Assembly: GCF_004341885.1 (NCBI RefSeq)
Contig: NZ_SLVX01000003.1
Span: forward strand, 372,001 to 436,000
Length of the DNA stretch: 64,000 nt
DNA from: Shinella granuli
GTDB lineage: Bacteria; Pseudomonadota; Alphaproteobacteria; Rhizobiales; Rhizobiaceae
Direction: 5' to 3'
Shown: positions 33,321-47,725 of the stretch, piece after piece
Layout of the letters: the number at the start of each line of letters is the position of its first letter
How positions within the stretch are numbered: position 1 is the first letter of the stretch
The notes under the pieces: model-generated
Seen by the model: the letters and a program-made list of their open reading frames with translations, nothing else
What the model was told of the DNA's origin: nothing
The model's database searches: none
Translations under genes and position numbers: made by a program

Positions 33321-33361
33321 GTTCTAGGAGCATTCGCGCCGGCCTCTTTGTGATGGGACAA
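33321..33361 (-). promoter_or_regulatory. NnrR-type box and -10 element of nirK
   Basis: TTGTGATGGGACAA (33348-33361) matches TTG-N8-CAA. On the reverse strand a TAGAAC hexamer (33326-33321) follows after 21 bp. Activator-site and -10 spacing fit a class II Crp/Fnr promoter with a transcript start near 33313, giving a leader of about 43 nt. Confidence 0.75.
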
Positions 33362-33410
33362 ACAGGTCCTTCCGGCCGCTGCGGCATTTTGGCAGATGCT
33401 GATTTGCTCT

Positions 33411-33452
33411 TTGCCATCTCGCAAAGAAGCGCCACCGCGGCTGCCCTAGAAA
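33411..33452 (+). promoter_or_regulatory. NnrR-type box and -10 element of nnrS
   Basis: TTGCCATCTCGCAA (33411-33424) is followed after 22 bp by TAGAAA (33447-33452). The predicted transcript start is near 33459, 22 nt before nnrS. It is separate from the nirK box in the same 210-bp intergenic region. Confidence 0.75.
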
Positions 33453-33480
33453 GAGCTGACAAATGCAAAGGAACACGAAC

Positions 33481-34695
33481 ATGAGTGCAAGCCAAACCAC
33501 CGCGCGCGTCAGCCGCGCCGTTCCCCGCGGCCTTTCCCGCACCGGCCCGGTGCTGTTCTCCTATGGCTTCCGGCCGTTCTTCCTCGGCGCCGGCCTGTGG
33601 GCGGTTGCCGCCATGGCCTTATGGATCGCAGCGATCACCGGGCATATCGAGCTTGGGGGCGATTACGGCGCGTCCAACTGGCACGCCCATGAGATGCTGT
33701 TCGGCTTTGCCTCCGCCGTGCTCGCCGGTTTCCTGCTGACGGCGGTGCCGAACTGGACGGGGCGCCTGCCCGTCTCCGGCTGGCCGCTCTTCGCACTGTT
33801 TACACTGTGGTGTGCCGGACGCCTCGCGCTGCTCGTGCCGGACACGATCGGCGTGATCGCGGCGGCCGTCATCGACGGGCTCTTCCTGCCGGCGCTGCTT
33901 GCCATCTGCACGCGCGAGGTCGTGGCGGGGCGCAAGTGGAAGGACCTCAAGGTGCTCGGCGGCCTCCTCGCCTTGTCGGTCGCCAACGGCATCTTCCATG
34001 TGGCGGCCATCGACGGCGAGCATGACCACATGGCGATCCGCCTTGCCGTCGCCGCCTATGTCGTGCTGGTGATGATCGTCGGCGGCCGCATCCTGCCGAG
34101 CTTCACCCGCAACTGGCTCAACAAGTCCGGCCGCACGGATTTCCCCGTGCCCTACAACCGCTTCGACATGGTCGCCATCCTTGCCGGCGTCGGCGCGCTC
34201 ACCGCCTGGACGCTCGCGCCCGACCGCCCCGGCACCGCCGGCCTCGGCCTGGTCGCTGCCCTCCTGCATTGCATCCGCCTCCACCGCTGGCGGGGCTGGA
34301 CGACGCGGCCGGAAAAGCTGCTCGTCATCCTGCATGTCGCCTATGCCTTCGTGCCGCTCGGCCTCGCGTCCATCGCCCTCAGCGCGCTCGGTTTTCTGGA
34401 GGAGCGCTCCGTGCTGCATCTCCTCTCGGTCGGCGCCATCGCCTGCATGATGCTGGCCGTCATGACACGGGCGAGCCTCGGCCATACCGGCCGCCCATTG
34501 CAGGCCTCGCGCCTCACCGTCGCCGCCTATGGCGCGCTGATCCTCTGCGCACTCATCCGCCCGCTCGGCGAGGTCTTTCCCGAGGCGAGCCACCTCGTCT
34601 ACGCCGCCTCCGGGCTGCTCTGGATCGTGGCCTTCGGGCTCTTCTGCCTGGAATATGCGCCGATCCTCGCACGCAAGCGCCGCACACCGCTCTGA
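33481..34695 (+). CDS. nnrS: NnrS family haem-containing membrane protein
   Basis: This 404-residue polytopic protein has about twelve hydrophobic segments and the NnrS motifs [20 protein letters not shown] and [20 protein letters not shown]. NnrS proteins bind haem and copper and protect against nitric oxide by limiting metal-nitrosyl complexes. The ATG at 33481 is preceded by AAAGGA; six upstream in-frame codons are probably not used. It diverges from nirK and has its own NnrR-type box. Confidence 0.93.
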
Positions 34696-34700
34696 ATGCG

Positions 34701-34731
34701 AAACGGCCCGGAAGCAGCTCCGGGCCGTTTT
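34701..34731. terminator. Terminator between nnrS and the convergent MIP18-like operon
   Basis: AAACGGCCCGG (34701-34711) and CCGGGCCGTTT (34720-34730) form a perfect 11-bp stem with an 8-nt loop, flanked by T and A runs, so it can act in both directions. Confidence 0.9.
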
Positions 34732-34735
34732 CTGC

Positions 34736-35035
34736 CTAGCCTTCCGCCGCCATCATCTCCGGCGTCCAGGGCGGCTCGTAGGTCAGCCGCACCTCGGCAT
34801 ATTCGACGCCCGGCACGTACCAGACACAATTGGCCACCGCATCCTTGAGGTAAGCGCTCGCCGGGCAGCCCCGCGTCGTCGTCGTCATGGCGATGCGCGC
34901 GATGCCGCCCTCCTCCACCGCGATCTCGTAGATCAGGCCGAGATCGACGATGTTGCGGCCGATTTCCGGGTCGATGATCATGCGCAGGGCATTGCGGATG
35001 GCCTCGGTCAGTGCAGCCTTCTCGTCCTCGTCCAT
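34736..35035 (-). CDS. MIP18/DUF59 family protein (iron-sulfur assembly factor-like)
   Basis: This 99-residue protein fits the MIP18/SufT/PaaD-like fold: IRNALRMIIDPEIGRNIVDL, then MTTTTRGCPASAYLKDAV with the conserved cysteine, and EVRLTYEPPWTPEMM at the end. Relatives assist assembly or insertion of iron-sulfur clusters. It is the last gene of a four-gene operon transcribed from the box at 37341, so it is probably made under denitrifying conditions, perhaps to repair iron-sulfur centres damaged by nitric oxide (inference). Confidence 0.85.
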   Translation of the reverse strand: MDEDEKAALTEAIRNALRMIIDPEIGRNIVDLGLIYEIAVEEGGIARIAMTTTTRGCPASAYLKDAVANCVWYVPGVEYAEVRLTYEPPWTPEMMAAEG

Positions 35036-35039
35036 CGGA

Positions 35040-35573
35040 TCACGCCTTCGCCCGGCCGGCCCGCACCAGGATGCGATAGGCCGAACCCGTCTCGTCGAAA
35101 TTGCCGGCCCACTGGTGGCCGCGCTTCGTCAATTCGGGGAACAGGAACAGTGGCTCGCGGGACAGGAGCGCGAAGAGGACCTCGCCCGGCTCCAGCGTCT
35201 CGGCCGCCGCAAGGATGCGGACCATCGGCTCGGGCGGATCGAGGTCGCTGAGGTCGAGATGAAGCGAGGGATCCGGCCAGGTCTCCGGGCGGTCCGCATT
35301 GTCGGAGGTCTCGACCGGCGCGGCCGCCTGCTGCGGCGTGAAGAGGACCTCCCAATCACCGCCCTCGATCTCATGGGCCTCATGGTCGAAGCCGCGGCTC
35401 GCCATGACGCGGAACAGCGGCTGGGGACGGAAGGTGGCGAAGAGCCGGAGCCCCTGCCCGGGGCCGAGCGACTGCACCGCCTCCATGATCGCCTGGAACG
35501 GCTCGCCGCCGCTTTCCAAGATCGGCCGCACGTCGAGGGTCTTGGGGGCGATGGCGTTTGAGACGTCGGACAT
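35040..35573 (-). CDS. Protein with two DUF2249 domains
   Basis: This 177-residue protein contains two copies of the DUF2249 pattern. The first is TLDVRPILESGGEPFQAIME to FRPQPLFRVMASRGFDHEAH, the second is HLDLSDLDPPEPMVRILAAA to SREPLFLFPELTKRGHQWAG. DUF2249 is related to the TusA-like fold and is often encoded beside hemerythrin and denitrification genes, with no defined reaction. It is 4 bp upstream of the MIP18-like gene and 3 bp downstream of the membrane protein gene. Confidence 0.87.
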   Translation of the reverse strand: MSDVSNAIAPKTLDVRPILESGGEPFQAIMEAVQSLGPGQGLRLFATFRPQPLFRVMASRGFDHEAHEIEGGDWEVLFTPQQAAAPVETSDNADRPETWPDPSLHLDLSDLDPPEPMVRILAAAETLEPGEVLFALLSREPLFLFPELTKRGHQWAGNFDETGSAYRILVRAGRAKA

Positions 35574-35576
35574 CGG

Positions 35577-36929
35577 TTATCTCCTTGAAACAAATGTAGG
35601 CAGGAAGAGATGGGGGCGCACCGTGCCGACCGGCGCCCGCAGCGCTTTCGGCACGATGCAAAGCCGGCGCGCGCGGATGAATTCTCCTATCAACCCCAGC
35701 GTCGCGGCCAGTTGCACGAGGACCGCCGCGCGAAAAACGCCGGAAGCCTCCGCGAAAAGCGCGAGCGTGGCCGCCGCCACCGCGCCGTAGTAGAACCAGA
35801 ACAGGACGCGACCACGCCCTTCATCGACCAGATCCTGCACGCGCGGCACCGGCGCGCGGCCGAGCACCGGCCCATAGGCCTCCAACCATGTCAGGAAGGC
35901 GACGATCTTGTAAAGCTGGGCAAGCCCCAGCCCCGTCAGCCAGCCGAAGACGAAAAGGTAGACGACCGCCGCAAGCCCCTCGCCCGCCCGGATGCCGGGC
36001 AGGTTGAGCAGGGCAACGGACAGCACAAGTGCGCCAAAGGCGGCGAACGTCGCCCGGATGTTCAGTTCCGCCTGCTTGCGCTTGCGCGCCCGGTAGAGAT
36101 GCACGACGTCGCCGCCGTAGAGCAGCGCCGCGGCAAGCGTCAGAAGGAGGGCGGCGGCAAACAGCGCCGTCACGCCGGAGGCAGCGAGAAGGACGACCGG
36201 AATGCAGGCGGCGACAAGCCCGATGGCAAGGCTTGCCGCCCACCAGACGATGCGGCTCGTCGGCCGCTCCGTCTCGGGCGCCAGCAGGAACATGGCGAGC
36301 AGCCGGTAGCTGACGCCGACCGCGGTGACGCTCAGCCAGCCGCCAAGGCCCAGCGCCGCATGCAAATCCACGCCGTCGGTGACGAGCCGGACAAGCAACA
36401 GGCTGTCGCTGGTGCCGGAAAGGGCAAGCGTGAAAGCGAAACCGGCAAGGGCCGCGCCGACGAGCGCCGACAGCCCGACGGCGACGAAGCGCGCCGGCAG
36501 CGGCAGGGGCCGCGCCGCAAGAAGCGTGGCGGCAAGGATGGCGGCGAGGAGGACGAAACCGGCCAGCAGCAATCCGCCCCCCACCGGCAGGAGCGCGAGC
36601 GGCAGGTCGATGGCGCCGGACAGCGCCACGAAGCCCCCGACCAGCACGCAGAGCCCGGCAACGATCAGAAGCAAGGCAGGCGCCGCAAACCGCCCGCCGA
36701 CCAGCGGGCGGGCGATCAGCACCGGCACGAACTGCAGGAGCGCCCCCGCCATCAGGAGGCTCAGCCACCCGATCGCGAGGACATGGACGAGCACCAGGGT
36801 TTCCGGCGCGCTGACGGCGACGGCCGGATAGCCGTAGCCCGCCAGCATCAGGCCCTGACCTGCGACGAGCATCAGACAGGCCAGGGCGAAATAGGACATG
36901 GTCCAGCGGGAGAGCGTCGCGCCCTGCAT
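35577..36929 (-). CDS. Polytopic membrane protein of the denitrification cluster, function unknown
   Basis: This 450-residue protein has about twelve hydrophobic helices, very rich in Ala and Leu. Histidines inside helices (VLVHVLAIGWLSLLMAGALL; GVDLHAALGLGGWLSVTAVG) recall NnrS and haem-copper oxidase-like folds, so haem or copper binding is possible. I do not recognise a named family with confidence. It lies between the single-domain and double-domain DUF2249 genes in the operon that starts at 37241. A role in nitric oxide or haem handling is inferred from neighbours only. Confidence 0.8.
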   Translation of the reverse strand: MQGATLSRWTMSYFALACLMLVAGQGLMLAGYGYPAVAVSAPETLVLVHVLAIGWLSLLMAGALLQFVPVLIARPLVGGRFAAPALLLIVAGLCVLVGGFVALSGAIDLPLALLPVGGGLLLAGFVLLAAILAATLLAARPLPLPARFVAVGLSALVGAALAGFAFTLALSGTSDSLLLVRLVTDGVDLHAALGLGGWLSVTAVGVSYRLLAMFLLAPETERPTSRIVWWAASLAIGLVAACIPVVLLAASGVTALFAAALLLTLAAALLYGGDVVHLYRARKRKQAELNIRATFAAFGALVLSVALLNLPGIRAGEGLAAVVYLFVFGWLTGLGLAQLYKIVAFLTWLEAYGPVLGRAPVPRVQDLVDEGRGRVLFWFYYGAVAAATLALFAEASGVFRAAVLVQLAATLGLIGEFIRARRLCIVPKALRAPVGTVRPHLFLPTFVSRR

Positions 36930-36962
36930 AAGGTTTCCCCTTCGCCGTGTGCCGTCTGCTGC

Positions 36963-37241
36963 CTAGTGGTCCGAGCCGCAGCAGCAATCGCAGCCGCGGT
37001 CCTCGATCCGGTCGATTTCGACGCGCCAGACCTCCGGTCCCTGTTCGAGATAGTCCCAGCCGAACTGGCCCGGGAAATTCGTCTCCAACTGATAGTGCAG
37101 CGGCCGCGGGTCGTGGTCGCTGGTGATCAGCATCGATTTACCGGGAAGCAGCGCGCCGAGCATGCCGAAGATGCGCGGATGACGCTCGCGCGGGGCAATG
37201 GTGCGGACATCGATGGAAGGCTTGGCCTGGTCGTCTGACAT
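36963..37241 (-). CDS. Small DUF2249 protein with cysteine-rich tail
   Basis: This 92-residue protein is a single DUF2249 domain (SIDVRTIAPRERHPRIFGML, then DHDPRPLHYQLETNFPGQFG and YLEQGPEVWRVEI) ending in an unusual CDCCCGSDH tail that could bind a metal. The start at 37241 is the first ATG with sense; an 88-codon upstream extension crosses the promoter box. It is the first gene of the four-gene operon and has an NnrR-type box 99 bp upstream. Confidence 0.87.
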   Translation of the reverse strand: MSDDQAKPSIDVRTIAPRERHPRIFGMLGALLPGKSMLITSDHDPRPLHYQLETNFPGQFGWDYLEQGPEVWRVEIDRIEDRGCDCCCGSDH

Positions 37242-37312
37242 GGTTTTCTGTTCCGTCCCGGCCGCTCCGATCCCGTTCCGGAAGGCACGGCCCGACCGAC
37301 CGGAACCAGCCG

Positions 37313-37354
37313 ACGCTAACCCCGCGACCTGCCCGCCACTTTGACGTTGCGCAA
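37313..37354 (-). promoter_or_regulatory. NnrR-type box and -10 element of the DUF2249 operon
   Basis: TTGACGTTGCGCAA (37341-37354) is followed on the reverse strand after 22 bp by TAGCGT (37318-37313). The predicted transcript start near 37306 leaves a leader of about 65 nt. Confidence 0.7.
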
Positions 37355-37391
37355 ACAATTCCGGAAATGCGCGGCCGCGACGTCCCGCTGC

Positions 37392-37433
37392 TTGGCTTTT
37401 CGCAAAGAAGCACTCCGGCCCGGCCCCTAGGCT
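37392..37433 (+). promoter_or_regulatory. NnrR-type box and -10 element of hemN
   Basis: TTGGCTTTTCGCAA (37392-37405) is followed after 22 bp by TAGGCT (37428-37433). The predicted transcript start is near 37440, 29 nt before hemN. Confidence 0.72.
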
Positions 37434-37468
37434 CCTCCCATTCATCCACCCGGACAAAGGAATGCGCC

Positions 37469-38821
37469 ATGCAACAGGCCCTGATCGAAAAATACGGCGA
37501 GGCACGGCTGCCGCGGTATACGAGCTATCCGACGGCGCCGGGCTTTTCGCCGACCGTCGGCACCGGCACCTATGGCGACTGGCTTGCCGCCATCCGGCCC
37601 GGCACCGATGCCTCGCTCTACCTGCACATCCCCTTCTGCCGCTCCATGTGCTGGTACTGCGGCTGTCACACGACGATCACCCAGCGCGACGAGCCGATCC
37701 TCGACTATATCGACATGCTCCGAAAAGAGATCGACCTCGTCTCCAGGACGGTCGGCGGCCGGCCGACCATCCGCCATGTGCATTTCGGCGGCGGCACGCC
37801 CACCATCATGCAGCCGGAGGAGTTCCGCGACCTGATCGGCCTCTTGCGCGCCCGCTTCGCCTTTGCCGGCGGCGCGGAGATCGCCGTCGAGATCGACCCG
37901 CGCACCCTCTCCGCCGAGATGGCGACGGCGCTCGGCGCGGCAGGCGTCACGCGCGCGAGCCTCGGCGTACAGAGCTTCGACCCCGTCGTGCAGAAGGCGA
38001 TCAACCGCATCCAGAGCGAGGCGCAGACGGCCGAGGCCGCCGCGCGGCTGCGCAAGGCCGGGGTCAGCGGCATCAATTTCGACCTCATCTACGGCCTGCC
38101 GCACCAGACGGTCGCCTCCTGCATCGCGACCGCGCAGGCGGCGATCCGCATGCGGCCGGAACGTTTCGCCGTCTTCGGCTATGCCCACATCCCGTCCTTC
38201 AAGAAGCACCAGCGGCTGATCGACGAGCGCGCGCTGCCCGACGCGGCCCTTCGCAGCGCGCAGGCCGAGGCGATCGCCGAAACGCTTGGCGGCGCCGGCT
38301 ATGTGCGCATCGGCCTCGATCACTATGCCCTGCCGGAAGACAGCCTCGCCCTCGCCGCCAAGCGCGGCCGGCTGCGCCGCAACTTCCAGGGCTATACGAC
38401 GGATGCCTGCACCACGCTGATCGGCTTCGGCGCCTCGTCGATCGGCCGCACGGCGGAAGGCTACGTGCAGAACGAGGTGCCGCCCGGCCTCTATGCCCAG
38501 CGCATCGCCTCCGGCCGCCTCGCCACCGCCAAGGGCTACCGGCTGACGGCGGAGGACCGGCTGCGCGCCGAGATCATCGAGCGCCTGATGTGCGATTTCC
38601 GCGTCGACGTGACGGGCATCGCCGCGCGGCACGGCTTCGATGCGGCCCCGCTTCTCGACGGCAATGCCAAGCTGGCGGCGCTTGCGGAGGATGGCGCGAT
38701 CGACATCCGCGGCGGCACCGTCACGGTGCGGCAGGACCACCGCTTCATCATCCGCGCGGTCGCCGCCGCCTTCGACGCCTATATCGACCGGTCGGCCCGC
38801 ACGCACAGCAAGGCGGCCTGA
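37469..38821 (+). CDS. hemN: Oxygen-independent coproporphyrinogen III oxidase (radical SAM)
   Basis: This 450-residue radical SAM enzyme decarboxylates coproporphyrinogen III to protoporphyrinogen IX without oxygen, supplying haem for anaerobic cytochromes. The cluster motif is HIPFCRSMCWYCGC (Cys57, Cys61, Cys64), and the start ARLPRYTSYPTAPGF and the later FGGGTPTIM are typical of HemN. The ATG at 37469 follows AAAGGA; the upstream 34-codon extension is not used. It diverges from the DUF2249 operon and has its own NnrR-type box. Confidence 0.95.
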   Translation: MQQALIEKYGEARLPRYTSYPTAPGFSPTVGTGTYGDWLAAIRPGTDASLYLHIPFCRSMCWYCGCHTTITQRDEPILDYIDMLRKEIDLVSRTVGGRPTIRHVHFGGGTPTIMQPEEFRDLIGLLRARFAFAGGAEIAVEIDPRTLSAEMATALGAAGVTRASLGVQSFDPVVQKAINRIQSEAQTAEAAARLRKAGVSGINFDLIYGLPHQTVASCIATAQAAIRMRPERFAVFGYAHIPSFKKHQRLIDERALPDAALRSAQAEAIAETLGGAGYVRIGLDHYALPEDSLALAAKRGRLRRNFQGYTTDACTTLIGFGASSIGRTAEGYVQNEVPPGLYAQRIASGRLATAKGYRLTAEDRLRAEIIERLMCDFRVDVTGIAARHGFDAAPLLDGNAKLAALAEDGAIDIRGGTVTVRQDHRFIIRAVAAAFDAYIDRSARTHSKAA

Positions 38822-38835
38822 AACCCAAACGAAAA

Positions 38836-38869
38836 AAGGGCCCGGCATGGTGCGGCATGCCGGGCCCTT
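38836..38869. terminator. Terminator between hemN and norD
   Basis: A perfect 14-bp stem (38836-38849 with 38856-38869) encloses a 6-nt loop. A run of As precedes it, which reads as Ts on the reverse strand, so it can terminate norD transcripts and, less clearly, hemN. Confidence 0.88.
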
Positions 38870-38888: not shown

Positions 38889-40787
38889 CTATCCGACAAG
38901 ACCGCGATAGATCGCCGGCAGCGCCGCAGGCAGCCGAGCGATATTGCTGACGATGGCATAGCCGTTGCGGCCGAAGATGGCCGGCACATAGACCTGCGCC
39001 TCCCGGTCGACCGTCACCCCGAACACGCTGACACCGGTGCGCCGCGACTCGTTCACCGCCCGACGGCTGTCCTCCAGCGCGAAGCGGCCCTCATAGTGGT
39101 CGACGTCGTTCGGCTTGCCGTCGGTGAGCAGCAGGAGGAGCTTTCGCCGGTTCGGCTGCTCGCGCAGCTTCGCCGCCGCATGGCGGATCGCCGGGCCGAT
39201 GCGGGTGTAGAAACCCGGCTTCAGCGCCGCGATGCGCGCTTCCACGGCATGGTTCATCGTCTCGCCGAAATCCTTGACCGTCTCGACCCGCACCCAGGAG
39301 CGCCGCCGCGAGGTGAAGGTGAGGATCGAGTGGCTGTCGCCGCAGGCGGCAAGACCGTGCGCCAGCACCAGCAGCGCCTCCTTCTCCACGTCGAGCACCC
39401 GGCGGTTGTCGAACCAGGCGTCCGTCGAAAGCGACACGTCGACGAGGATGGTGACGGCAAGGTCATGCGCCTGCGGCCGGCTCATCAGGTGGATGCGGTC
39501 GCTGCCCTGCCCGCCGGCGGCAAGGTCGCTGCGGGCGCGCACCACGGCATCGAGGTCCAGCTCCGCCCCGTCGAGCTGCGCGCGCAGCATTTCATGGCGC
39601 GGCCGCAGCACCTCGAACTGCCGGCGTACGCGGCGGATCAGGCTCTTCGTGTCGGCATCGGCCTCGGGCACGGCAGCCATGTCCGGTGCGGGAGAAGCAA
39701 GCACCCGGCAATGGTCGGGCAGGTAGGTGCCGGTACGGAAATCCCATTCGGGATAGGTGTGCTCGCCGGTCAGCCGCGTGCGGTCGAGCGCTTCCGGCGG
39801 CAGGTCGAGATCGAAATGGAAGCGGGCGGACGGGCGGCCCTTGCGCTCGCCGAGCGTCATGTCGTCCAGTTCGTCGGCGGCGCTCGAATCGTGGTCGTCG
39901 CTGTCGTCGCCGGGGCGGTCGACATTGACCATCTCCGCCATGGCGAGGATCTTCTCGAAGCGGTTGAGGATGAAGGGGCTGCGCTCGTTCTTGCGGTTCT
40001 CGGCCTTCTCGCGCAGCGCGACATGGCGGCCGGTCTCCGGGGTCTCGGGCGTGCCGCCCGTTGCAGGCTGGTCCTCTTCGCCGCGCCCCTCGCCCTCCTC
40101 GCGCAGGAGCGCATCCGGCCATAGCGGCACAGGCAGCATCGGCAGGTATCCGGCCGGCGCCCGGTGCGGGAAGATGACCGGCAGCGCATCGTCCGCAAGG
40201 CCGGCGCCCTTCCTCAGGAGGCTGAGGATGCGGTTCTCCACATGCCGCTCGACGGAGGGAAGCGGCCGGCTGCGGCGCGCCGAAAGCGTGGCGGCCGAAA
40301 GCCGCCGGTAGCGCCGCGCAAGCCCCGGAAAGGCCGAAAGCACCGCCTTCACCGTCGCCTCCGCCCGCTGGAGGATGGCAAGGTCGCGCTGCAGAGGATC
40401 GCTCTCGACAACCGGATCGAGCGGCATCACCGCCATCGTCGCCGCGAGCCAGACATAAAGGTCCCGGTTGAGGCCGCGATCGGCGAAGAGGTCGATCGCG
40501 CCGGGCAGCATCAGCGTCGCATGGTCGCGGCCGGGCTGCACCAGCTTCTCCTCGCCGAGCCCCATGCGCTGGCGTAGCCTCAGGCGATGCGCCGAGGTGC
40601 GCCCGCGGGCGGGCGCGATCTGCACCGCGCCTTCGCCGCCGAAGCCGCGGAAGCAGACGGCGAGCACCGGCCGGACATCCTCCAGCCGCACGGCATGCTC
40701 CGGATGACGCGGCCAGGTGCCGGTATTGCCAACGAGCCGGTGCCAGGCCCGGCCGACCGTTTCCTCAAGCTCCAGGAAATCCAGCAT
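38889..40787 (-). CDS. norD: NorD, von Willebrand factor A domain protein for NO reductase activation
   Basis: This 632-residue protein ends in a VWA domain (about residues 435-632) with the metal-ion site LAVTILVDVSLSTDAWFD and KLLLLLTDGKPNDVDHYEG. The N-terminal 430 residues are typical of NorD. Together with the AAA+ ATPase NorQ it activates or matures the NorCB nitric oxide reductase, probably by helping insert the non-haem iron. It is the last gene of the nor operon, 9 bp after norQ. Confidence 0.93.
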   Translation of the reverse strand: MLDFLELEETVGRAWHRLVGNTGTWPRHPEHAVRLEDVRPVLAVCFRGFGGEGAVQIAPARGRTSAHRLRLRQRMGLGEEKLVQPGRDHATLMLPGAIDLFADRGLNRDLYVWLAATMAVMPLDPVVESDPLQRDLAILQRAEATVKAVLSAFPGLARRYRRLSAATLSARRSRPLPSVERHVENRILSLLRKGAGLADDALPVIFPHRAPAGYLPMLPVPLWPDALLREEGEGRGEEDQPATGGTPETPETGRHVALREKAENRKNERSPFILNRFEKILAMAEMVNVDRPGDDSDDHDSSAADELDDMTLGERKGRPSARFHFDLDLPPEALDRTRLTGEHTYPEWDFRTGTYLPDHCRVLASPAPDMAAVPEADADTKSLIRRVRRQFEVLRPRHEMLRAQLDGAELDLDAVVRARSDLAAGGQGSDRIHLMSRPQAHDLAVTILVDVSLSTDAWFDNRRVLDVEKEALLVLAHGLAACGDSHSILTFTSRRRSWVRVETVKDFGETMNHAVEARIAALKPGFYTRIGPAIRHAAAKLREQPNRRKLLLLLTDGKPNDVDHYEGRFALEDSRRAVNESRRTGVSVFGVTVDREAQVYVPAIFGRNGYAIVSNIARLPAALPAIYRGLVG

Positions 40788-40796
40788 GGCGGTTCC

Positions 40797-41609
40797 TCAG
40801 CGGATCATCGCGTCGGCGATTTCGAGAAGGGCGGCCCGGACATCCGGCTCGTCGGTCAGCGGCTCGATCATCGCCGCCCGCACCGCCTCGCGCATGGTCA
40901 TGCCGCTGTCGATGAGGCAGGCGCAGTAGACGAGGAGGCGGGTGGAGACCCCCTCTTCCAGGTCGTGCCCCTTGAGCGCCCTCAACCGATGTGCCAGCGC
41001 GACGAGCGGCGCGACCTGCGCTTCGTCCAGCCCGCTTTCCGCGGCGACGACGGCGATTTCCTGGGGCTTCGGCAGGAAGTCGAACTCGATGGCGACGAAG
41101 CGCTGGCGGGTGGAGGGCTTCAGCGCCTTCAGGAGGTTCTGGTAGCCGGGATTGTAGGAGACGACGAGCATGAAGCCGGGCGGCGCTTCCAGCACCTCGC
41201 CGGTGCGCTCCAGCGGCAGGATGCGCCGGTCGTCGGTGAGCGGATGCAGCACGACGGCGACGTCCTTGCGCGCCTCGACGATCTCGTCGAGATAACACAC
41301 GCCGCCCTGGCGCACCGCGCGGGTCAGGGGACCGTCTACCCAGACTGTATCACCGCCCTTCAGGAGGTAACGGCCGGTGAGGTCGGCGGCCGAAAGATCG
41401 TCATGGCAGGAGACGGTGGAGAGCGGCAGGCCGAGCCTTGCCGCCATGTGGCTGACGAAACGGGTCTTGCCGCAGCCGGTCGGCCCCTTCAGGAGCAGCG
41501 GAAGCTGGCGCGTCCAGGCCGTCTCGAACAGGGCGCATTCGTTGCCGGAGGGGCTGTAGGCCGGGATATCCGGAACGGGACGGGGCGTATCCTTGAGGAG
41601 GACGTTCAT
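40797..41609 (-). CDS. norQ: NorQ, MoxR-type AAA+ ATPase for NO reductase activation
   Basis: This 270-residue MoxR/CbbQ-family ATPase has Walker A KGPTGCGKTR (residues 41-50), Walker B GVCYLDEIVEARKDV and sensor region LVVSYNPGYQN. It works with NorD on NorCB. The start at 41609 follows GGAGAT in the 65-bp gap after norB. A longer in-frame ORF upstream overlaps norB antisense to nothing real and is not coding. Confidence 0.94.
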   Translation of the reverse strand: MNVLLKDTPRPVPDIPAYSPSGNECALFETAWTRQLPLLLKGPTGCGKTRFVSHMAARLGLPLSTVSCHDDLSAADLTGRYLLKGGDTVWVDGPLTRAVRQGGVCYLDEIVEARKDVAVVLHPLTDDRRILPLERTGEVLEAPPGFMLVVSYNPGYQNLLKALKPSTRQRFVAIEFDFLPKPQEIAVVAAESGLDEAQVAPLVALAHRLRALKGHDLEEGVSTRLLVYCACLIDSGMTMREAVRAAMIEPLTDEPDVRAALLEIADAMIR

Positions 41610-41674
41610 TCTGATCTCCAAGAAACTGTCGAAAGAAGGTGCCGGCCCCGCGGGATGACGGGGCCGGCCAGCGC

Positions 41675-43021
41675 TCACTCGGCCGGCTGGACCATCCGGG
41701 TGAGGCTGTCGCTGCGCTCCCGACCGGGCACGAGCACCGCCCAGATGAACATCAGCGCCGAAACGAGCACGACGGCGCCCGAGCCGAGGCGGACCCAGTA
41801 GAACAGCGCGAGCTGGTCCTGGACGTCCATGAAGCCTTCGCCGAGCACACGCTGCAGGTGGACCTGCACGACGCCGGCGAAGGTGAGCGCGAAGGTCATG
41901 ACAGACATGGCCGTGCACATGATCCAGAAGCTGGCGATGGAAAGCCACTGGTTGAACGGCGCGCGGCCGCGGATTTCCGGGATCGCATAGGCCATCATGG
42001 CAAGGTTCAGCATCACATAGGCGCCGAAGAAGGCGAGGTGCCCATGCGCGGCGGTGACCTGCGTGCCGTGGGTGTAGTAGTTCACCGACGACAGCGTGTG
42101 CAGGAAGCCCCAGACGCCCGCGCCGAAGAAGGCCATGACCGAGCAGCCGATCGACCAGAGGAGAGCCGCCTTGTTTGGGTGGTTGCGGCCGGCCTTCCAG
42201 GTCATGACGAAGGTGAAGATGACCATGGTGAAGAAGGGCGCCACTTCCAGCGTCGAGAACAGCGAGCCGATCCACTGCCAGTAGCCCGGCGCGCCGATCC
42301 AGTAATAATGGTGGCCGGTGCCGAGGATGCCCGAGAAGAGCGCGAGGCCGACGATGACATAGAGCCACTTCTCCACGACCTCGCGGTCGATGCCGTTGAG
42401 CTTGATCATCAGGAAGGCGAGCACGGAAGCCATGATCAGCTCCCAGACACCTTCGACCCACAGGTGGATGACATACCACCAGTACATCTTGTCGAGCGCC
42501 AGGTTGACCGGGTTGTAGAAGGCGAAGAGGAAGAAGAGCGCGAGCCCCCACAGGCCGAAGAGCAGGATGTTGATAACCGTGGTCTTGCGACCCTTCAGCG
42601 CCGTCATGGTGATGTTGAAGAGGAACATCAGGACGACGACGACGATGCCGACCTTGGCGATGAAGGTCTGTTCCAAAAATTCGCGGCCCTCATGGATGCG
42701 GAACATGTAGCCGACCACCGTCAGGCCTGCCGCCACGAAGAACATCCAGAACTGCAGGACGGCGAGCTTCGGGCTGTAGAGCTCCGTCTCGGTCTCCTCC
42801 GGGATCATGTAGTAGGTGGCGCCCATGAAGCCCATGAGCAGCCAGACGACGAGCGCATTGGTGTGGATCATGCGCACGATGTTGAAGGGCAGCAGCTCGG
42901 AGAGCACATTCGGCAGCACGTAGATCGTGCCGGCGAGGACGCCGAAAGCCACCTGGGCGAGGAACAGGCCGAGCGCGCCGTAGAAATACAGCATGGCGAC
43001 CTTTTGCGTTTGATATTTCAT
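41675..43021 (-). CDS. norB: Nitric oxide reductase subunit B
   Basis: This 448-residue protein is the catalytic haem-copper-oxidase-like subunit of cytochrome c-dependent NO reductase, with about twelve membrane helices. Haem and iron ligands are seen in RMIHTNALVVWLL, VIHLWVEGVWELIMASVLA and LGTGHHYYWIGAPGYWQWIG, and in the final helices in AHGHLAFFGAYVM. The conserved glutamates of the NOR active site are in WVEGVWE. It reduces two NO to N2O. Length is that of short cNOR NorB, not the longer quinol-type qNor. It follows norC by 27 bp. Confidence 0.97.
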   Translation of the reverse strand: MKYQTQKVAMLYFYGALGLFLAQVAFGVLAGTIYVLPNVLSELLPFNIVRMIHTNALVVWLLMGFMGATYYMIPEETETELYSPKLAVLQFWMFFVAAGLTVVGYMFRIHEGREFLEQTFIAKVGIVVVVLMFLFNITMTALKGRKTTVINILLFGLWGLALFFLFAFYNPVNLALDKMYWWYVIHLWVEGVWELIMASVLAFLMIKLNGIDREVVEKWLYVIVGLALFSGILGTGHHYYWIGAPGYWQWIGSLFSTLEVAPFFTMVIFTFVMTWKAGRNHPNKAALLWSIGCSVMAFFGAGVWGFLHTLSSVNYYTHGTQVTAAHGHLAFFGAYVMLNLAMMAYAIPEIRGRAPFNQWLSIASFWIMCTAMSVMTFALTFAGVVQVHLQRVLGEGFMDVQDQLALFYWVRLGSGAVVLVSALMFIWAVLVPGRERSDSLTRMVQPAE

Positions 43022-43048
43022 CTCTTGTCTCCTGAACGCGCGTGTCGG

Positions 43049-43501
43049 TCAGCCGGCATCGTTCGGCGGCCAGTTCTGGGTGTTGATCTTGCTCGTCCAT
43101 TCAAGAAAGTCGGCGAGATCGTTGAGTTCCTGTTCGGTGAGGTGGAACTGCGGCATCTGCCGCCGGCCCTCCGCCCCGCTCGGCTGCGCCGCCATCCAGG
43201 CCTTGAAGGCCTCGCGTGCGCCTTCCGGATCGTCGGCACCGCCGTAGCGCTTCCACACATTGCCGAGCTCGGGCGCGAAATAGGCGCCTTCGCCGAGCAG
43301 CGTGTGGCAGTTGATACAGGCGTTCTTCTCCCAGACATGCTTGCCGCGCGCGACGTTGTCGGTCAGCGTCGTCTCGTCGGTGGCGGTCGTGCGCATGTAA
43401 TAATGGGAATGGGCGGTCAGCCCGACGAAGATCGTGAAGAAGAAGATGGACCCGCCATAGAAGACGTTGCGGGCCCCGGTCTTGGTAAGGCGCTCTGCCA
43501 T
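43049..43501 (-). CDS. norC: Nitric oxide reductase subunit C (membrane-anchored cytochrome c)
   Basis: This 150-residue protein has one N-terminal membrane helix (NVFYGGSIFFFTIFVGLTA, about residues 12-30) and one haem c site, CINCH (62-66), with a probable axial methionine in RRQMPQFHLT. It passes electrons from periplasmic cytochromes to NorB. The ATG at 43501 follows AAGGGAAAGGA; the 100-codon upstream extension is not coding. An NnrR-type box lies 127 bp upstream. Confidence 0.96.
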   Translation of the reverse strand: MAERLTKTGARNVFYGGSIFFFTIFVGLTAHSHYYMRTTATDETTLTDNVARGKHVWEKNACINCHTLLGEGAYFAPELGNVWKRYGGADDPEGAREAFKAWMAAQPSGAEGRRQMPQFHLTEQELNDLADFLEWTSKINTQNWPPNDAG

Positions 43502-43601
43502 CCCATGGTCCTTTCCCTTGCCGGAAACTCCATGGCTCCGGCGAAAAACCCCCGCCGACTTTCTGCCGGCGATCCCCTCGCCGGCATTGCGGGACGTCCT
43601 T

Positions 43602-43642
43602 GTTCTAGCGGGAGGGAAAAAGCCTTCTTTGCGCATTGGCAA
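43602..43642 (-). promoter_or_regulatory. NnrR-type box and -10 element of norCBQD
   Basis: TTGCGCATTGGCAA (43629-43642) is followed on the reverse strand after 21 bp by TAGAAC (43607-43602). The predicted transcript start near 43594 gives a leader of about 93 nt. It gives norCBQD its own promoter behind norEF. Confidence 0.75.
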
Positions 43643-43658
43643 AGAGCGGGGCGGTTCG

Positions 43659-43934
43659 TCAGCCGATGAGCGCGCCGAGGACCGAGCGGGCGAGCGCCAG
43701 CGACAGGAGCAGCGCCGGCCAGGCAAGCAGGGCCGGCCGCAGCGCGCTGCGGCTCGCGCGCAACTCCATGAAATCGAGGATGACGAAACGGCCCTTGGCA
43801 TAGGCCATGATCAGCACCGCGGTGATGGGCACCAGGAGCCCGCCGCTGAGCCCGCCGACGAGGGCGCCGCCGACGGCGAGCGTCAGCAGCATGGCGAGGG
43901 TGGCGATGAACTGTTCGCGGGCCTGTCGGGTCAT
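43659..43934 (-). CDS. norF: NorF small membrane protein
   Basis: This 91-residue protein has two or three hydrophobic helices (FIATLAMLLTLAVGGALVGG, LLVPITAVLIMAYAKGRFVI, ALLAWPALLLSLALARSVL) and the cytochrome oxidase subunit IV-like pattern KGRFVILDFMELR. NorF accompanies NorE in Paracoccus-type nor clusters and supports NO reductase activity. It starts 7 bp after norE. Confidence 0.87.
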   Translation of the reverse strand: MTRQAREQFIATLAMLLTLAVGGALVGGLSGGLLVPITAVLIMAYAKGRFVILDFMELRASRSALRPALLAWPALLLSLALARSVLGALIG

Positions 43935-43941
43935 GGCGGTC

Positions 43942-44502
43942 TCAGGTGAGGTAGACGATCGGGAACATCACGAGCCAGACGAGGTCGATCGCATGCCAGA
44001 GCGTCGCGATCATCACGACATTGCTCCGCGACGGGCGCCAGGCGACGAGAAAGAGGATGGCCGCGCCGAAGACGACGTGCAGCAGGTGGAAGCCGGTGAC
44101 GAGGAAATAGAGTTCGGCAAGCGTGCCCGCCCCGCCGATGCCGGAGCGGACCTCCATCCCATATTCGGCGAGTTTCACCGCCGCAAAGGCAAGGCCGAGA
44201 AGGCCCGCAAGGACGAGGGAGCGGCGAACGCCCGAAAGATCCGCCCCGCGGCGAACCGCCAGCGCCGCCTGCCAGCCGCTGAGGACGAGAAGGACCGTGT
44301 TGAGCGCGGCAAGGCCGGGATGGAGGTGCGCGCGCAGGAAGGACGCATTGGCGACGTCCACCAGCGTCATCACCATGAAGGCGACGAGCAGCGCGCCGAA
44401 GGCTGCAAGTTCGCTCCACACCAGGATCCAGAGAAGAAGGCAATCGCCCTCCCCGCTCTCCGCCTTCGCAACCGCCGTGCGCATATCGTCCATCGTCGCC
44501 AT
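43942..44502 (-). CDS. norE: NorE, cytochrome oxidase subunit III-like protein
   Basis: This 186-residue membrane protein is a COX3-family member with about five helices (DCLLLWILVWSELAAFGALL at the start, WHAIDLVWLVMFPIVYLT at the end). NorE is found with NorCB in many denitrifiers and improves NO reductase function. The predicted -10 element (44514-44509) would place transcription start at about 44502, at the first ATG. The true start may therefore be ATG 44493 or 44484, or the mRNA may be leaderless. Confidence 0.9.
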   Translation of the reverse strand: MATMDDMRTAVAKAESGEGDCLLLWILVWSELAAFGALLVAFMVMTLVDVANASFLRAHLHPGLAALNTVLLVLSGWQAALAVRRGADLSGVRRSLVLAGLLGLAFAAVKLAEYGMEVRSGIGGAGTLAELYFLVTGFHLLHVVFGAAILFLVAWRPSRSNVVMIATLWHAIDLVWLVMFPIVYLT

Positions 44503-44508
44503 GGCCCA

Positions 44509-44578
44509 GCCCTAGCGCAGGAAGCCGCGGGCTTCTTTGCGCCGGCGCAAAGAGCGGCAATGCCGGACGCGGCATGAT
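44509..44578. promoter_or_regulatory. Shared NnrR-type box between norE and the small membrane protein gene
   Basis: TTGCGCCGGCGCAA (44537-44550) is a perfect palindrome, the most symmetrical of the seven boxes. On the reverse strand TAGGGC (44514-44509) follows after 22 bp, towards norE. On the forward strand a weaker CATGAT (44573-44578) follows after 22 bp, towards the gene at 44603, so one site may serve both directions. Confidence 0.75.
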
Positions 44579-44602
44579 GGCGGCAACGGAAAGGACCTTC
44601 CC

Positions 44603-44758
44603 ATGACGGATGCACAGTTCGGTCTCCTCATCGCCGCTCCGGTCATCGCCGGCTTCGCCCTGATGCTCTACCGCATGGGCGTGCTGCAGGGCGCGGGAAC
44701 GCTGTCCGCCGTCAGCGCCTCTGTTGTCATCGCCGCCGTGCTCTTCTTCGGCCAGTAG
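44603..44758 (+). CDS. Tiny membrane protein, 51 residues, function unknown
   Basis: This 51-residue protein consists of two hydrophobic stretches (LLIAAPVIAGFALMLYRMGV and SAVSASVVIAAVLFFGQ). AAAGGA lies about 9 bp before the ATG. It is 9 bp upstream of the hemerythrin gene and shares the perfect NnrR-type box with norE, so it is probably cotranscribed with the hemerythrin during denitrification. I do not recognise the family; small subunit-like proteins of this sort occur in oxidase and reductase complexes. Confidence 0.7.
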   Translation: MTDAQFGLLIAAPVIAGFALMLYRMGVLQGAGTLSAVSASVVIAAVLFFGQ

Positions 44759-44767
44759 GAGGCGGCG

Positions 44768-45229
44768 ATGGACGACGCGAGCCTCAACGCCGCCGATATC
44801 GACCGGCTGGAAACGCTTCACCAGGCCCTGCTCGATCTCTGCCTGCATCTCGAAGAGATCGCAGGCGAACCGGGCACCGCCGGTGAGCTGCGTGCGCTCG
44901 CCGACGCCATTCCGCCCGCCCTCAGGGCCGTGCACGAGCTGGAGGAGCGCCTGCTCTTCCCGGATTTCGACCGGCATGCCGGCTCCTGCTTCGCCGCCCT
45001 GGCGATCGAGCGCCTGAAGGCGGAGCACCGCTGCGACCGGCTCGCCGCCGAGGAGCTCTCGCTGACGCTGAAGGCCGTCGCCGACGGTCGCTGCGGGCTT
45101 TCGCCCGAGACGGTGTCGCGCATGATAGGCGGCTTCCAGGAAAGCCTGCGCCGCCATGTCTTTTCCGAACAGATGATCCTGGAGACGCTCATCGCCGCCA
45201 AGGCGGAGGCGCGCGACGTCTTCGCCTGA
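44768..45229 (+). CDS. Hemerythrin HHE domain protein
   Basis: This 153-residue helical protein has the spaced histidine and carboxylate residues of the hemerythrin HHE fold: LETLHQALLDLCLHLEE, AVHELEERLLFPDFDRHA, LKAEHRCDRLAAEELS and LRRHVFSEQMILETLI. Such di-iron proteins bind oxygen or nitric oxide, or supply iron for repair, as in the RIC/YtfE group. Without a long DUF542 region it is not classical YtfE. It follows the 51-residue membrane protein by 9 bp and ends 6 bp from convergent ubiV. Confidence 0.85.
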   Translation: MDDASLNAADIDRLETLHQALLDLCLHLEEIAGEPGTAGELRALADAIPPALRAVHELEERLLFPDFDRHAGSCFAALAIERLKAEHRCDRLAAEELSLTLKAVADGRCGLSPETVSRMIGGFQESLRRHVFSEQMILETLIAAKAEARDVFA

Positions 45230-45235
45230 CCGCCC

Positions 45236-46171
45236 TCAGTCCCGTCCCATCGCCGCGTTTCGCCCGCGCGACACCCAGGCCGCGCCCTCCTGCCGGTGCA
45301 GGAAACCGTTCGAGAAGCGCACGCCGGGATAGACCTTCGCCAGGTCCGCGATCGCCTCCTCGCCATCGATCCTGCCGTCGAGCACCCTGCGGTAGAGGCT
45401 TGCCACCTTCACCATGTCGCAATCCTGCGGCGAGAGCCGCACGCGCGACAGGCCCGCTTCGACGAGCGGTGCAAGGTCATCGACGAGCACGACGCAACTG
45501 TTCGACATCGTCTGCACGCCGTTCAGCACGAGGAAGGACTGGCGGTCGAGCGTACGCAGCGGCAGGCCATCGGGCTCCTCGCCGCAGACGAACTGGCAAT
45601 TGTCCTTCGTCAGCCCCTTGGAACGCGCATGGGCGCAGCGCGCAGAAATGGCGAGCGGCATGCGGCCGAAGGCGAAGACTTCGAAGGAGAAATCCGGCAT
45701 GGCCTCCAGCATCTGCCGGATGGAGCCAGCCGGCAGCTCCGGCGGCAGACAGATGTTCTCGGCACCGCGGGCGGCAAGCGTGCGGGCCGTCGCCGCATTG
45801 TAGACATTGACCAGCGGGCCGATCGAATGCGGACGGCCCTTGAGGAGGCCGAGCGCGGAGAGGTCGTTCGCCTCCACCGGATGCAGGCTGTCGGCGATCA
45901 GGTCACGCACATGCCGGCTTTCGCGCGGCAGCGTGACCATGGCGAGCGTGGAGAGCGTCACGCGCTTGCCCGCCGCCTCCAGCCGCTCGACGACCTCGGC
46001 GACATGCGGCTCGCTGAAATGCTGGCGCTTGGAACAGACCGTTTCCCCGAGCGTGACATGCTCGACCGCCGCCTCGTCGGCAATGCGGAAGTAGAAGTCC
46101 CGCCATTTCGGCCCATCCCAGAGGAAGTAGACCGGGCCGAGGCTCAGCGCCGGTTTGCCTGTCGTCGCCAT
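45236..46171 (-). CDS. ubiV: UbiV, U32-family protein of oxygen-independent ubiquinone synthesis
   Basis: This 311-residue U32 peptidase-family protein carries the four cluster cysteines in the UbiV pattern: about residue 46 (GETVCSKRQHF), 179 (ISARCAHARSKG), 192 and 196 (DNCQFVCGEE). UbiV forms a complex with UbiU that hydroxylates ubiquinone precursors without oxygen. AGGAG stands before ATG 46171, one codon inside a GTG-started frame. It is the last gene of ubiTUV, 9 bp after ubiU. Confidence 0.92.
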   Translation of the reverse strand: MATTGKPALSLGPVYFLWDGPKWRDFYFRIADEAAVEHVTLGETVCSKRQHFSEPHVAEVVERLEAAGKRVTLSTLAMVTLPRESRHVRDLIADSLHPVEANDLSALGLLKGRPHSIGPLVNVYNAATARTLAARGAENICLPPELPAGSIRQMLEAMPDFSFEVFAFGRMPLAISARCAHARSKGLTKDNCQFVCGEEPDGLPLRTLDRQSFLVLNGVQTMSNSCVVLVDDLAPLVEAGLSRVRLSPQDCDMVKVASLYRRVLDGRIDGEEAIADLAKVYPGVRFSNGFLHRQEGAAWVSRGRNAAMGRD

Positions 46172-46180
46172 CACCGTCTC

Positions 46181-47158
46181 CTATCGCCAGCGTTTGTCAT
46201 AGGCGCCCGTCGTCGTGCGCTGGCCCTCGCTCATCGCGCGGAGCCGGGCGACGAGTGCCGCGCGCTCGCCGGGCGAGGCACCAAGCGCCTTCTTGAGCGA
46301 CGACACCACCTCGGCGACATAGGCCTTGCCGCGCTGGCGCCCCTCGATCTTCAGCGCCGAGACGCCGGCCGCGCGCAGCGCGTCGATCTCGTCGATGACG
46401 TCGAGCGAGACGGGGTCCTCGAAGGCGTAGCCCTCGACGTCGCCGATCTCGAAGCGCCCCTTGCAGAGCGTCGGATAGCCGGAGGCCTCGCCGGGGCCGA
46501 AGCGGTTGATCGTGTAGGCGCCGAGCTCGGAGACAAGGTCCGCACCGTCCTGCCGGTAGCGGACATGGCTCGCCGGCGAGCAGACGCCGTTCATGTTGGG
46601 CGACTTGCCCGTTGCATAGGAGGAAAGCGAGCAGCGCCCCTCCGCCATGACGCAGAGCCCGCCGAAGGCGAAGACCTCGACCTCGCAGTCGATCTGCCGC
46701 GTCAGCCGGGCGATATCCTGCACGGTCAGAACGCGGGGCAGCACGACGCGCTTTGCCCCGAAGGCTTCGACGAGGAAACGGATCGCCTCCGGGTTCGAGG
46801 CGGAGGCCTGGACGGAGACGTGCAGCCGCTGCTGCGGATACTTTTCAGCGACATAGGCCATCAGGCCGAAATCGGCGAGGATCAGCGCATCGGCACCCAT
46901 CGCCACCGCATCGTCGGCGGCCGAATACCAGAGCGCCTCGTCGCCCGCCCGCATGAAGGTGTTGAGCGCGACGAAGGTCTGCACCTTCTTGCGACGGGCA
47001 AGCGCGATCGACTGGCGCAGCTCCTCGCGACTGAAATTGAGGCCCGGGAAGTTGCGGGCATTGGTCTCGTCGCGAAAGCCGCAATAGACGGCATCGGCAC
47101 CGGCCTCCACCGCCTCGCGGAAGGCGGCGGGCGTGCCGGCGGGGCAGATCAGTTCCAT
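46181..47158 (-). CDS. ubiU: UbiU, U32-family protein of oxygen-independent ubiquinone synthesis
   Basis: This 325-residue U32-family protein starts MELICPAGTPAAFREAVEAG and has cysteines at 169, 176, 193 and 232, the same positions as the [4Fe-4S] ligands of E. coli UbiU. With UbiV it performs the ring hydroxylations of ubiquinone in anaerobic cells. Its start overlaps the end of ubiT by 10 nt. The denitrification chain needs ubiquinone under anoxia, which explains the location. Confidence 0.94.
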   Translation of the reverse strand: MELICPAGTPAAFREAVEAGADAVYCGFRDETNARNFPGLNFSREELRQSIALARRKKVQTFVALNTFMRAGDEALWYSAADDAVAMGADALILADFGLMAYVAEKYPQQRLHVSVQASASNPEAIRFLVEAFGAKRVVLPRVLTVQDIARLTRQIDCEVEVFAFGGLCVMAEGRCSLSSYATGKSPNMNGVCSPASHVRYRQDGADLVSELGAYTINRFGPGEASGYPTLCKGRFEIGDVEGYAFEDPVSLDVIDEIDALRAAGVSALKIEGRQRGKAYVAEVVSSLKKALGASPGERAALVARLRAMSEGQRTTTGAYDKRWR

Positions 47159-47655
47159 GTCGCGTCCCTTCCTTCGAGCGCCTTGCCGCGGATATAGCGC
47201 GCCGTGCCGGCGACGAGCGGCGAGAACGGCCCGGCCAGCGCGCCGAGTTCGCGCGGCAGGTCGATGGCGCTGTCGTCGAGCGCGTTGCGCAGCGCCAGCA
47301 TCGCCTCCATGTCGCCGGTGACCGAAAGGTCGCGCGAGAAGAACAGCGCATCCGCATCGCAGCGCCCTTCGAGCAGGCCGAGAAGCAGCACCAGCGGCCC
47401 CTCAATGCGCGCATCGACGAGCGGCGGAGCGCCGCGCGAGACGGCGAGCGTCTTCATGGCCGGCACGACGGTGAAATGCAGCGGCAGATCGACGGGCGAG
47501 AAGCCGTAACAGGTCTCACGATAGGCGCCGAGCCGTTCGAAGAGATCGGGATGGGCCTTCAGCACGCCGGAAAACAGGTGGCGCGCCACCCGTTCCACCA
47601 GCCAGAGAGGCGCAAGATCGACCGGTTTGACGAGAAGAGGCGGAAGCGATGGCAT
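47149..47655 (-). CDS. ubiT: UbiT, SCP2-domain protein of oxygen-independent ubiquinone synthesis
   Basis: This 168-residue protein has an SCP2 sterol-carrier fold (YGFSPVDLPLHFTVVPAMKT, then LVLLLGLLEGRCDADALFFS and DLSVTGDMEAMLALRNALDD). UbiT is thought to bind the lipid precursors for UbiUV, replacing UbiJ of the aerobic pathway. It is the first gene of the ubiTUV operon. An NnrR-type box with TAGGGT stands 56 bp upstream. Confidence 0.92.
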   Translation of the reverse strand: MPSLPPLLVKPVDLAPLWLVERVARHLFSGVLKAHPDLFERLGAYRETCYGFSPVDLPLHFTVVPAMKTLAVSRGAPPLVDARIEGPLVLLLGLLEGRCDADALFFSRDLSVTGDMEAMLALRNALDDSAIDLPRELGALAGPFSPLVAGTARYIRGKALEGRDATWN

Positions 47656-47683
47656 GCGGGACTTTCCAGAAACGAACGTCTGG

Positions 47684-47725
47684 ACCCTAGGCAGCGTCGG
47701 GCGCCAAGAGTTTGCGCCAGCACAA
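47684..47725 (-). promoter_or_regulatory. NnrR-type box and -10 element of ubiTUV
   Basis: TTGCGCCAGCACAA (47712-47725) is followed on the reverse strand after 22 bp by TAGGGT (47689-47684). The predicted transcript start is near 47677, 22 nt before ubiT. In the other direction the box ends 34 bp before ubiD, but no -10-like hexamer is found at the matching distance. Confidence 0.75.

Follow-up and report, generated by a model that had tools for sequence, protein, structure and literature searches.

A stretch of 64,000 nucleotides of Shinella granuli (contig NZ_SLVX01000003.1, positions 372,001 to 436,000; G+C 66%; hereafter the window) carries a denitrification cluster in which seven boxes of the form TTG-N8-CAA are each followed, 21 or 22 bp downstream and in the direction of a target gene, by a hexamer TAGNNN (Table 1). 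The question raised by this locus, part of a genome of 6.59 Mb in 97 contigs, is whether these boxes belong to the promoters of one regulon and, if so, which regulator reads them. We consider that the seven sites are very probably class II activator-dependent sigma-70 promoters of the regulon of NnrR, a Crp/Fnr-family protein encoded within the cluster.

Promoter geometry of the seven boxes

The boxes sit in five promoter regions (nirK-nirV-nnrR/nnrS; DUF2249 operon/hemN; norCBQD; norE/small open reading frame (ORF)-hemerythrin; ubiTUV/ubiD-ubiX), and the gap between box and TAG is 21 bp at nirK and norC and 22 bp at nnrS, the DUF2249 operon, hemN, norE and ubiT. When 21 or 22 bp separate a Crp/Fnr box from the -10 element, the centre of the box lies 40.5 or 41.5 bp 5' of the transcription start. 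In this class II layout the activator occupies the place of the -35 element. The seven sites have this geometry, with a hexamer at 21-22 bp and box centres near -41 relative to the predicted starts. An earlier note on this DNA had listed the boxes with coordinates, directions, spacings, hexamers and target genes, all of which were recovered exactly, and its view of them as a consistent group of promoters of the activator type, whose transcripts would begin some 41 bp from the centres of the boxes, holds. A final T is present in three of the window hexamers; among the -10 elements of Alphaproteobacteria studied, more than 60% lack that final T (-7), according to part of PMC8407463. All seven boxes match ctTTGcgnnnncgCAAag, given as the NnrR motif of alphaproteobacteria in passages of Rodionov et al. 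2005 (PMC1274295). As described in a section of PMC5582078, the box axis of the FixK2-activated nosR promoter of Bradyrhizobium diazoefficiens lies 40.5 bp from the start; like the window sites, this promoter has a replaced -35 element and a fixed start distance, but its box letters and its activator are different.

Frequency in the window and in the genome

The window contains 12 TTG-N8-CAA sites where 6.6 are expected, and at least 12 were found in 6 of 100 shuffles. TAG lies at 21/22 bp in 7 of the 24 site-orientations of these boxes, and over gaps of 0-69 it is found elsewhere at two places only, gaps 13 and 46. Using 300 dinucleotide shuffles of the window, we obtained a mean of 0.08 and a maximum of 1 for box plus TAG, against the seven found, so that the earlier claim that chance is unlikely is borne out. 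Over the whole window TAG (0.34%) is less common than TAT (0.42%).

Genome-wide, the bare box occurs 549 times against 557 in a backwards control, which is chance level, and a scan for it was therefore rejected as a regulon finder. Box plus TAG at 21/22 bp occurs 27 times (12 + 15), 7 of them in the window, which is about 1% of the genome (clustering P ~6e-9); 24 of the 27 places fall outside genes, a rough figure from a crude gene finder. The backwards control of this pattern gives 49 (25 + 24), and it counts the word GAT instead, which we take to be the commoner word; other spacings were used as the control, and gaps 8-36 combined give 137, or about 8 expected per two gaps. Among the 20 places outside the window, 7 have an FNR-type box (TTGAY-N4-RTCAA), and the remaining 13 are near the background of about 8 (P 0.07). 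The answer to whether the pattern occurs at random frequency elsewhere, which the earlier note had named as a refutation, is thus mixed: chance level for the bare box, an excess for box plus TAG that persists when the window is left out, and little above background once window and FNR-type sites are taken away. Box plus TAG is a good description of the cluster, but by itself it predicts poorly, being weakly informative outside the cluster.

The longer pattern CTTTGYN7CAAASA was also rejected as a finder when one mismatch was allowed, with 38 matches against 38 in the backwards control. There are seven distinct exact matches, of which four are in the window and one precedes an iron-sulfur repair gene discussed below; the other two, read by eye as lying among transposase-like ORFs (C28:18410) and inside an oxidoreductase-like ORF (C41:10094), were not counted as targets.

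Conservation of the layout in relatives

The layout was followed in a comparison set composed of the window and norB-anchored loci, the best 80 of 477, nearly all from Hyphomicrobiales by title, with one metagenome-assembled genome titled Arenimonas; these sequences are kin and do not count as independent events. TTG-N8-CAA was searched up to 260 bp 5' of each orthologue start, the box of a divergent neighbour also being counted, and sequences whose first 40 residues were not reached or that had less than 150 bp upstream were dropped (nirK 3, nnrS 3, hemN 2, norE 4). A box lies upstream of norC in 80/80, nirK in 52/52, ubiT in 45/45, DUF2249 in 70/71, hemN in 55/56, norE in 74/76 and nnrS in 42/53 sequences. 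Among 393 distinct box-bearing promoters of the seven target genes, 348 have TA at 21/22 bp, whereas spacing pairs without overlap with 21/22 gave 3-31 of the 393.

The third base of these 348 is G in 224, A in 51, T in 46 and C in 27; TAG at the -10 is accordingly a preference and not a constant, with nirK as the exception to it (TAG in 11/49). The spacing of the TAG sites is specific to the gene, being 21 bp at norC (59/59) and nirK (12/14) and 22 bp at DUF2249 (52/53), ubiT (36/38), nnrS (18/19), hemN (23/28) and norE (26/37). A position weight matrix trained on 235 sites of the relatives, with the window excluded and close relatives in the training set, gave its top seven scores in the window to the seven boxes (27.6-36.0); then came the reverse sides of the same boxes (at most 22.9) and the best other place (6.7), and a backwards control reached 10.4. 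In Sinorhizobium meliloti 1021 the same seven promoters all have a box with TA at 21/22 bp, six of them with TAG.

The regulator and its rivals

The window's NnrR, which gave no NCBIfam match over cut-off, shares 85% identity with the protein that adjoins the nirK-nirV genes on pSymA of S. meliloti. Crp-type helix-turn-helix domains give 22 matches in the genome, 10 of them over cut-off; among the 8 of these that we read, three have an FNR-like E-x-x-S-R recognition helix, and H-x-x-S-R is found only in the window's protein, where His (LHTISR) replaces the Glu of FNR- and FixK-like proteins. This His is present in 32 of 33 rows of NnrR orthologues, the window's included, the one other row being unreadable. 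Passages of PMC1274295 (section 8) and PMC2908626 correlate the recognition-helix residue with the bases of the half-site, and this link fits NnrR, since 12 of the 14 window half-sites have C or T at position 4 (C 9, T 3, G 1, A 1). The core targets of NnrR, nir, nor and nnrS, are all in the window. We take nnrU to be another name of norE. In S. meliloti nirK, norC, hemN, nnrU and nnrS are reported NnrR targets (Meilhoc 2010, as cited in a part of PMC6710368). NnrR is the best candidate for the binder, and from sequence analysis we infer both its binding and NO (nitric oxide) as the signal.

If so, NnrR, whose gene (30309-31010) lies behind nirK-nirV, would bind the 14-bp box as a dimer when NO is present. 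With its centre 40.5 or 41.5 bp upstream of the start, the box would stand in for the -35 element, and RNA polymerase would be held at the -10 hexamer, mostly TAGNNN, 21 or 22 bp downstream. Genes switched on in this way would be those for reducing nitrite and NO (nirK, norCBQD, norE), those with a connection to NO handling (nnrS, DUF2249 and probably hemerythrin), and those for the oxygen-independent synthesis of haem (hemN) and of ubiquinone (ubiTUV). In the window no TTG-N8-CAA box lies directly upstream of nnrR, nirV, ubiU or ubiV, and in relatives a box precedes nnrR in 9 of 32, four of the eight listed having FNR-like letters; nnrR is therefore probably read from the nirK operon here. 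The TTG-N8-CAA at 40972, inside norQ and before norD, was set aside, as it is not among the top 30 matrix matches.

Three other explanations were weighed. The cluster might be mainly an oxygen regulon whose boxes are bound instead by an FnrL-like protein with cysteines (C1:616204) and a FixK-like protein (C58:6997); together with an FtrB-like protein (C17) these are the E-x-x-S-R proteins of the genome, all below curated cut-offs. FixK2 of Bradyrhizobium accepts TTG(A/C)-N6-(T/G)CAA (part of PMC5582078), a consensus which four of the seven boxes fit (33411, 37341, 43629, 44537); Bradyrhizobium nirK is placed under FixK2 control in a passage of PMC4064962, and ubiquinone genes RSP0467-8 are FnrL targets, with RSP0465-0466 as predicted DNR targets, in one of PMC2908626. 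However, the recognition-helix Glu of both proteins goes with TTGA, found in 1 of the 14 half-sites, and the strict FNR-type box occurs in none of the seven boxes and none of the 12 window sites, against 14 with TA at 21/22 bp elsewhere in the genome, so that we hold this explanation to be improbable. That a loose motif and TAG merely coincide by chance deserves practically no credence: genome-wide the bare box is no commoner than in the control, but seven box-plus-TAG sites stand against 0.08 expected and the geometry is kept in relatives, which already refutes it.

The remaining explanation, that TAG is a mere local flavour of the -10 element at Crp/Fnr-activated or sigma-70 promoters, with no meaning specific to NnrR, is compatible with NnrR control and about evenly balanced in our judgement. 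It is favoured by the 14 FNR-type sites just mentioned, of which 7 have TAG, by TAG at 47/146 FNR-type sites in 13 genomes of the genus and 68/221 in all 21 genomes, counts that are neither promoter-filtered nor independent, and by the frequent absence of T at -7 in alphaproteobacterial -10 elements (PMC8407463, in part). On the other side, the NnrR-type promoters here have TAG in 7/7 cases compared with 7/14 (Fisher P 0.047), and TAG dominates with relatives (224/348), nirK excepted, although it is rarer than TAT in the window. Because TAG is not constant, and because FNR-type promoters use it too, the part of the earlier claim that box plus TAG defines one NnrR regulon falls.

Several observations weigh against control by NnrR as described. 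A strict box is lacking in 11/53 nnrS sequences and TA at 21/22 bp in 45/393 box-bearing promoters, and the predicted start of norE coincides with its ATG. Among distinct boxes of the relatives, A, the FNR/FixK letter, stands at position 4 of 75/320 half-sites, so discrimination between NnrR and FNR/FixK is not strict. The FixK2-consensus fit of four boxes, together with the element GCGGCATTTTGGC between the nirK and nnrS boxes, makes further control beside NnrR likely. This element resembles the RegR/ActR consensus; its pattern is found in 18/39 nirK-nnrS intergenic regions and in 11/49 DUF2249-hemN regions, the window's not among them, and in 0/44 and 0/52 of the other two regions.

Two sides of the norE box

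The norE box at 44537 is a perfect palindrome, and its other (+) side has a candidate -10 CATGAT (44573-44578) at 22 bp, with a predicted start at about 44585, followed 18 nt further by an ATG at 44603. This ATG opens a 51-codon ORF for a small hydrophobic protein, overlooked earlier. It is present in 79/81 sequences searched, the window included, and intact in 77/77 copies aligned from the start, with mismatches by codon position of 958:498:1806 (third position 1806/3262). Its product had no Pfam or NCBIfam match; it is possibly NorF-like, which is a guess. We regard it as a conserved small protein missed by length cut-offs. At 22 bp on this side the relatives have CAG in 16, CAT in 15 and TAG in 15 of 59 distinct segments. 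In the + direction the box has a matrix score (22.9) barely above the 21.3 of box 43629 read in reverse; as a palindrome scores in either direction, the case for an eighth promoter is carried by the relatives' hexamers and the ORF and not by the score. On sequence grounds, box 44537 probably also serves the 51-codon ORF and the hemerythrin gene.

On the norE side, 16 of the 22 scorable sequences have the first T of the hexamer 11 or 12 nt upstream of an ATG, and the start on the ATG predicts either a leaderless norE message or translation from a codon some residues downstream. One may speculate, and we do so tentatively, that Rhizobiales NnrR promoters keep a selected, weak TAGNNN -10 that is silent until NnrR binds, and that box 44537 drives both norE and, via CA[GT]NNT or TAG, an NO-induced 51-residue membrane protein with hemerythrin.

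Comparison with described regulons

We take COG4309 to be the DUF2249 family. The alphaproteobacterial NnrR regulon in the passages of PMC1274295 on this subject has nir, nor, nnrS and hemN as targets, with COG4309 probably co-transcribed with nor, and shares these and its motif with the window; the same passages do not mention -10 spacing, TAG, ubiTUV or the 51-codon ORF, all features of the window. A table of a B. diazoefficiens nnrR mutant in PMC6710368 lists nirK, hemN1 and hemN2, as well as bll7628 ('sterol-binding protein') and bll7627 ('U32 family peptidase') with box TTGTTCCCGCTCAA and values of -10.3 and -15, which we take as fold changes; from names and order, the latter pair seems to be ubiT-ubiU. 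Likewise, the U32 peptidase and lipid-carrier genes of Rhodobacter sphaeroides (RSP0465-0466), predicted DNR targets in a part of PMC2908626, are in our reading of names and order ubiTU. According to part of PMC6710368, NnrR of B. diazoefficiens is under FixK2 and its gene has its own box, whereas in the window nnrR follows nirK-nirV with no box. The pSymA nir-nor cluster of S. meliloti 1021 agrees with the window in the NnrR and the seven promoters described above, but has the norE hexamer TATTCC instead of TAGGGC.

The finding in the window is real and correct in substance, and mostly known in kind apart from a few additions, most targets being already in print as NnrR targets or candidates. 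Oxygen-independent ubiquinone synthesis is tied by it to the NO regulator, a link seemingly already held, under other names, in the B. diazoefficiens table; a search of the open literature gave no paper naming both NnrR and UbiU. It also provides a map of promoters and predicted start sites for the reduction of nitrite and NO in a bacterium whose genome encodes NapA (C9:14535-17021) and in which NosZ gave no match over cut-off with the one model searched (TIGR04244), so that N2O may be the end product of denitrification.

Genes of the cluster

The names nirK, hemN, ubiT, ubiU and ubiV are based on curated models over cut-off, and nnrS and DUF2249 on Pfam. The names norB, norC, norD, norE, norQ, nirV and nnrR are presumed from domain matches and gene order. 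Order and strand suggest that the three genes of the DUF2249 region form one operon. Among the relatives compared, NorB of S. yambaruensis is 100% identical to that of the window.

Table 1. Features of the denitrification cluster in window coordinates; -10 hexamers are candidates and transcription starts are predicted.
Feature	Coordinates	Strand	Remarks
NnrR, Crp/Fnr-family regulator	30309..31010	-	recognition helix TTLHTISR
nirV-like gene	31080..32012	-	FGE-sulfatase domain; between nirK and nnrR, same strand
nirK, copper nitrite reductase	32128..33270	-	TIGR02376, 548 bits, cut-off 296
nirK box TTGTCCCATCACAA	33348..33361	-	-10 TAGAAC 33321-33326; start ~33314; ATG 33270
Element GCGGCATTTTGGC	33381..33393	+	resembles RegR/ActR box
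nnrS box TTGCCATCTCGCAA	33411..33424	+	-10 TAGAAA 33447-33452; start ~33459; ATG 33481
nnrS	33481..34695	+	PF05940
DUF2249 operon (putative)	35040..37241	-	first gene DUF2249 protein, ATG 37241
DUF2249-TusA protein	35040-35573	-	Pfam
450-aa protein of DUF2249 operon	35577-36929	-	no family match
DUF2249-operon box	37341..37354	-	-10 TAGCGT 37313-37318; start ~37306; ATG 37241
hemN box	37392..37405	+	-10 TAGGCT 37428-37433; start ~37440; ATG 37469
hemN, oxygen-independent coproporphyrinogen III oxidase	37469..38821	+	TIGR00538, 413 bits, cut-off 325
norC-norB-norQ-norD operon (putative)	38889..43501	-	domain matches; names by gene order
norC box	43629..43642	-	-10 TAGAAC 43602-43607; start ~43595; ATG 43501
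norE, cytochrome oxidase subunit III-like	43942..44502	-	domain match and order
norE box TTGCGCCGGCGCAA	44537..44550	.	norE-side -10 TAGGGC 44509-44514; start = norE ATG 44502
51-codon ORF	44603..44758	+	between norE and hemerythrin gene
Hemerythrin-domain gene	44768..45229	+	PF01814; 3' of 51-codon ORF
ubiT-ubiU-ubiV, oxygen-independent ubiquinone synthesis	45236..47655	-	NF047962, NF047963, NF047965, each over cut-off
ubiT(UV) box	47712..47725	-	-10 TAGGGT 47684-47689; start ~47677; ATG 47655

Further boxes in the genome

On another contig, an NnrR-type box (C10:56816-56829) precedes a gene for iron-sulfur repair of the RIC/YtfE type (TIGR03652, 209 bits, cut-off 205); the hexamer 22 bp away is CAGGGT and thus has no TAG. 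A passage of PMC1274295 counts dnrN-type genes as core members of NO regulons. Six of 21 genomes, all belonging to the genus, carry the repair gene, and TTG-N8-CAA lies upstream in 6/6, a count made after the fact. Only the two closest genomes have the box 110 bp upstream of the start and followed after 22 or 21 bp by a hexamer of the CAG or CAA kind; the other four have it at 151-152 bp with no YAN-T hexamer after it. An upstream box is thus supported for this gene and class II geometry is not. Taken with the other side of box 44537, which in the window also has no TAG, this box makes the seven sites of the earlier note a probable undercount.

The FNR-type sites with TAG include some that precede, as read by eye, the FnrL-like gene, an apparent 5-aminolevulinate synthase gene and an apparent universal stress protein gene. 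An FNR-type box with TAT at 22 bp lies directly before the FtrB-like regulator gene (C17:79454-79492), whose neighbours were read by eye as urease genes. The box upstream of napA, TTGATGTTGCGCAA, is FixK-like and without TA at 21/22 bp.

On the ubiD side of box 47712 the box itself is found in 44/44 sequences and TAG at 20-23 bp in 0/44; CAA at 22 bp there overlaps a likely ribosome site. Between this box and the ubiD start lies a T-rich block with CAA (47726-47759), which is partly conserved.

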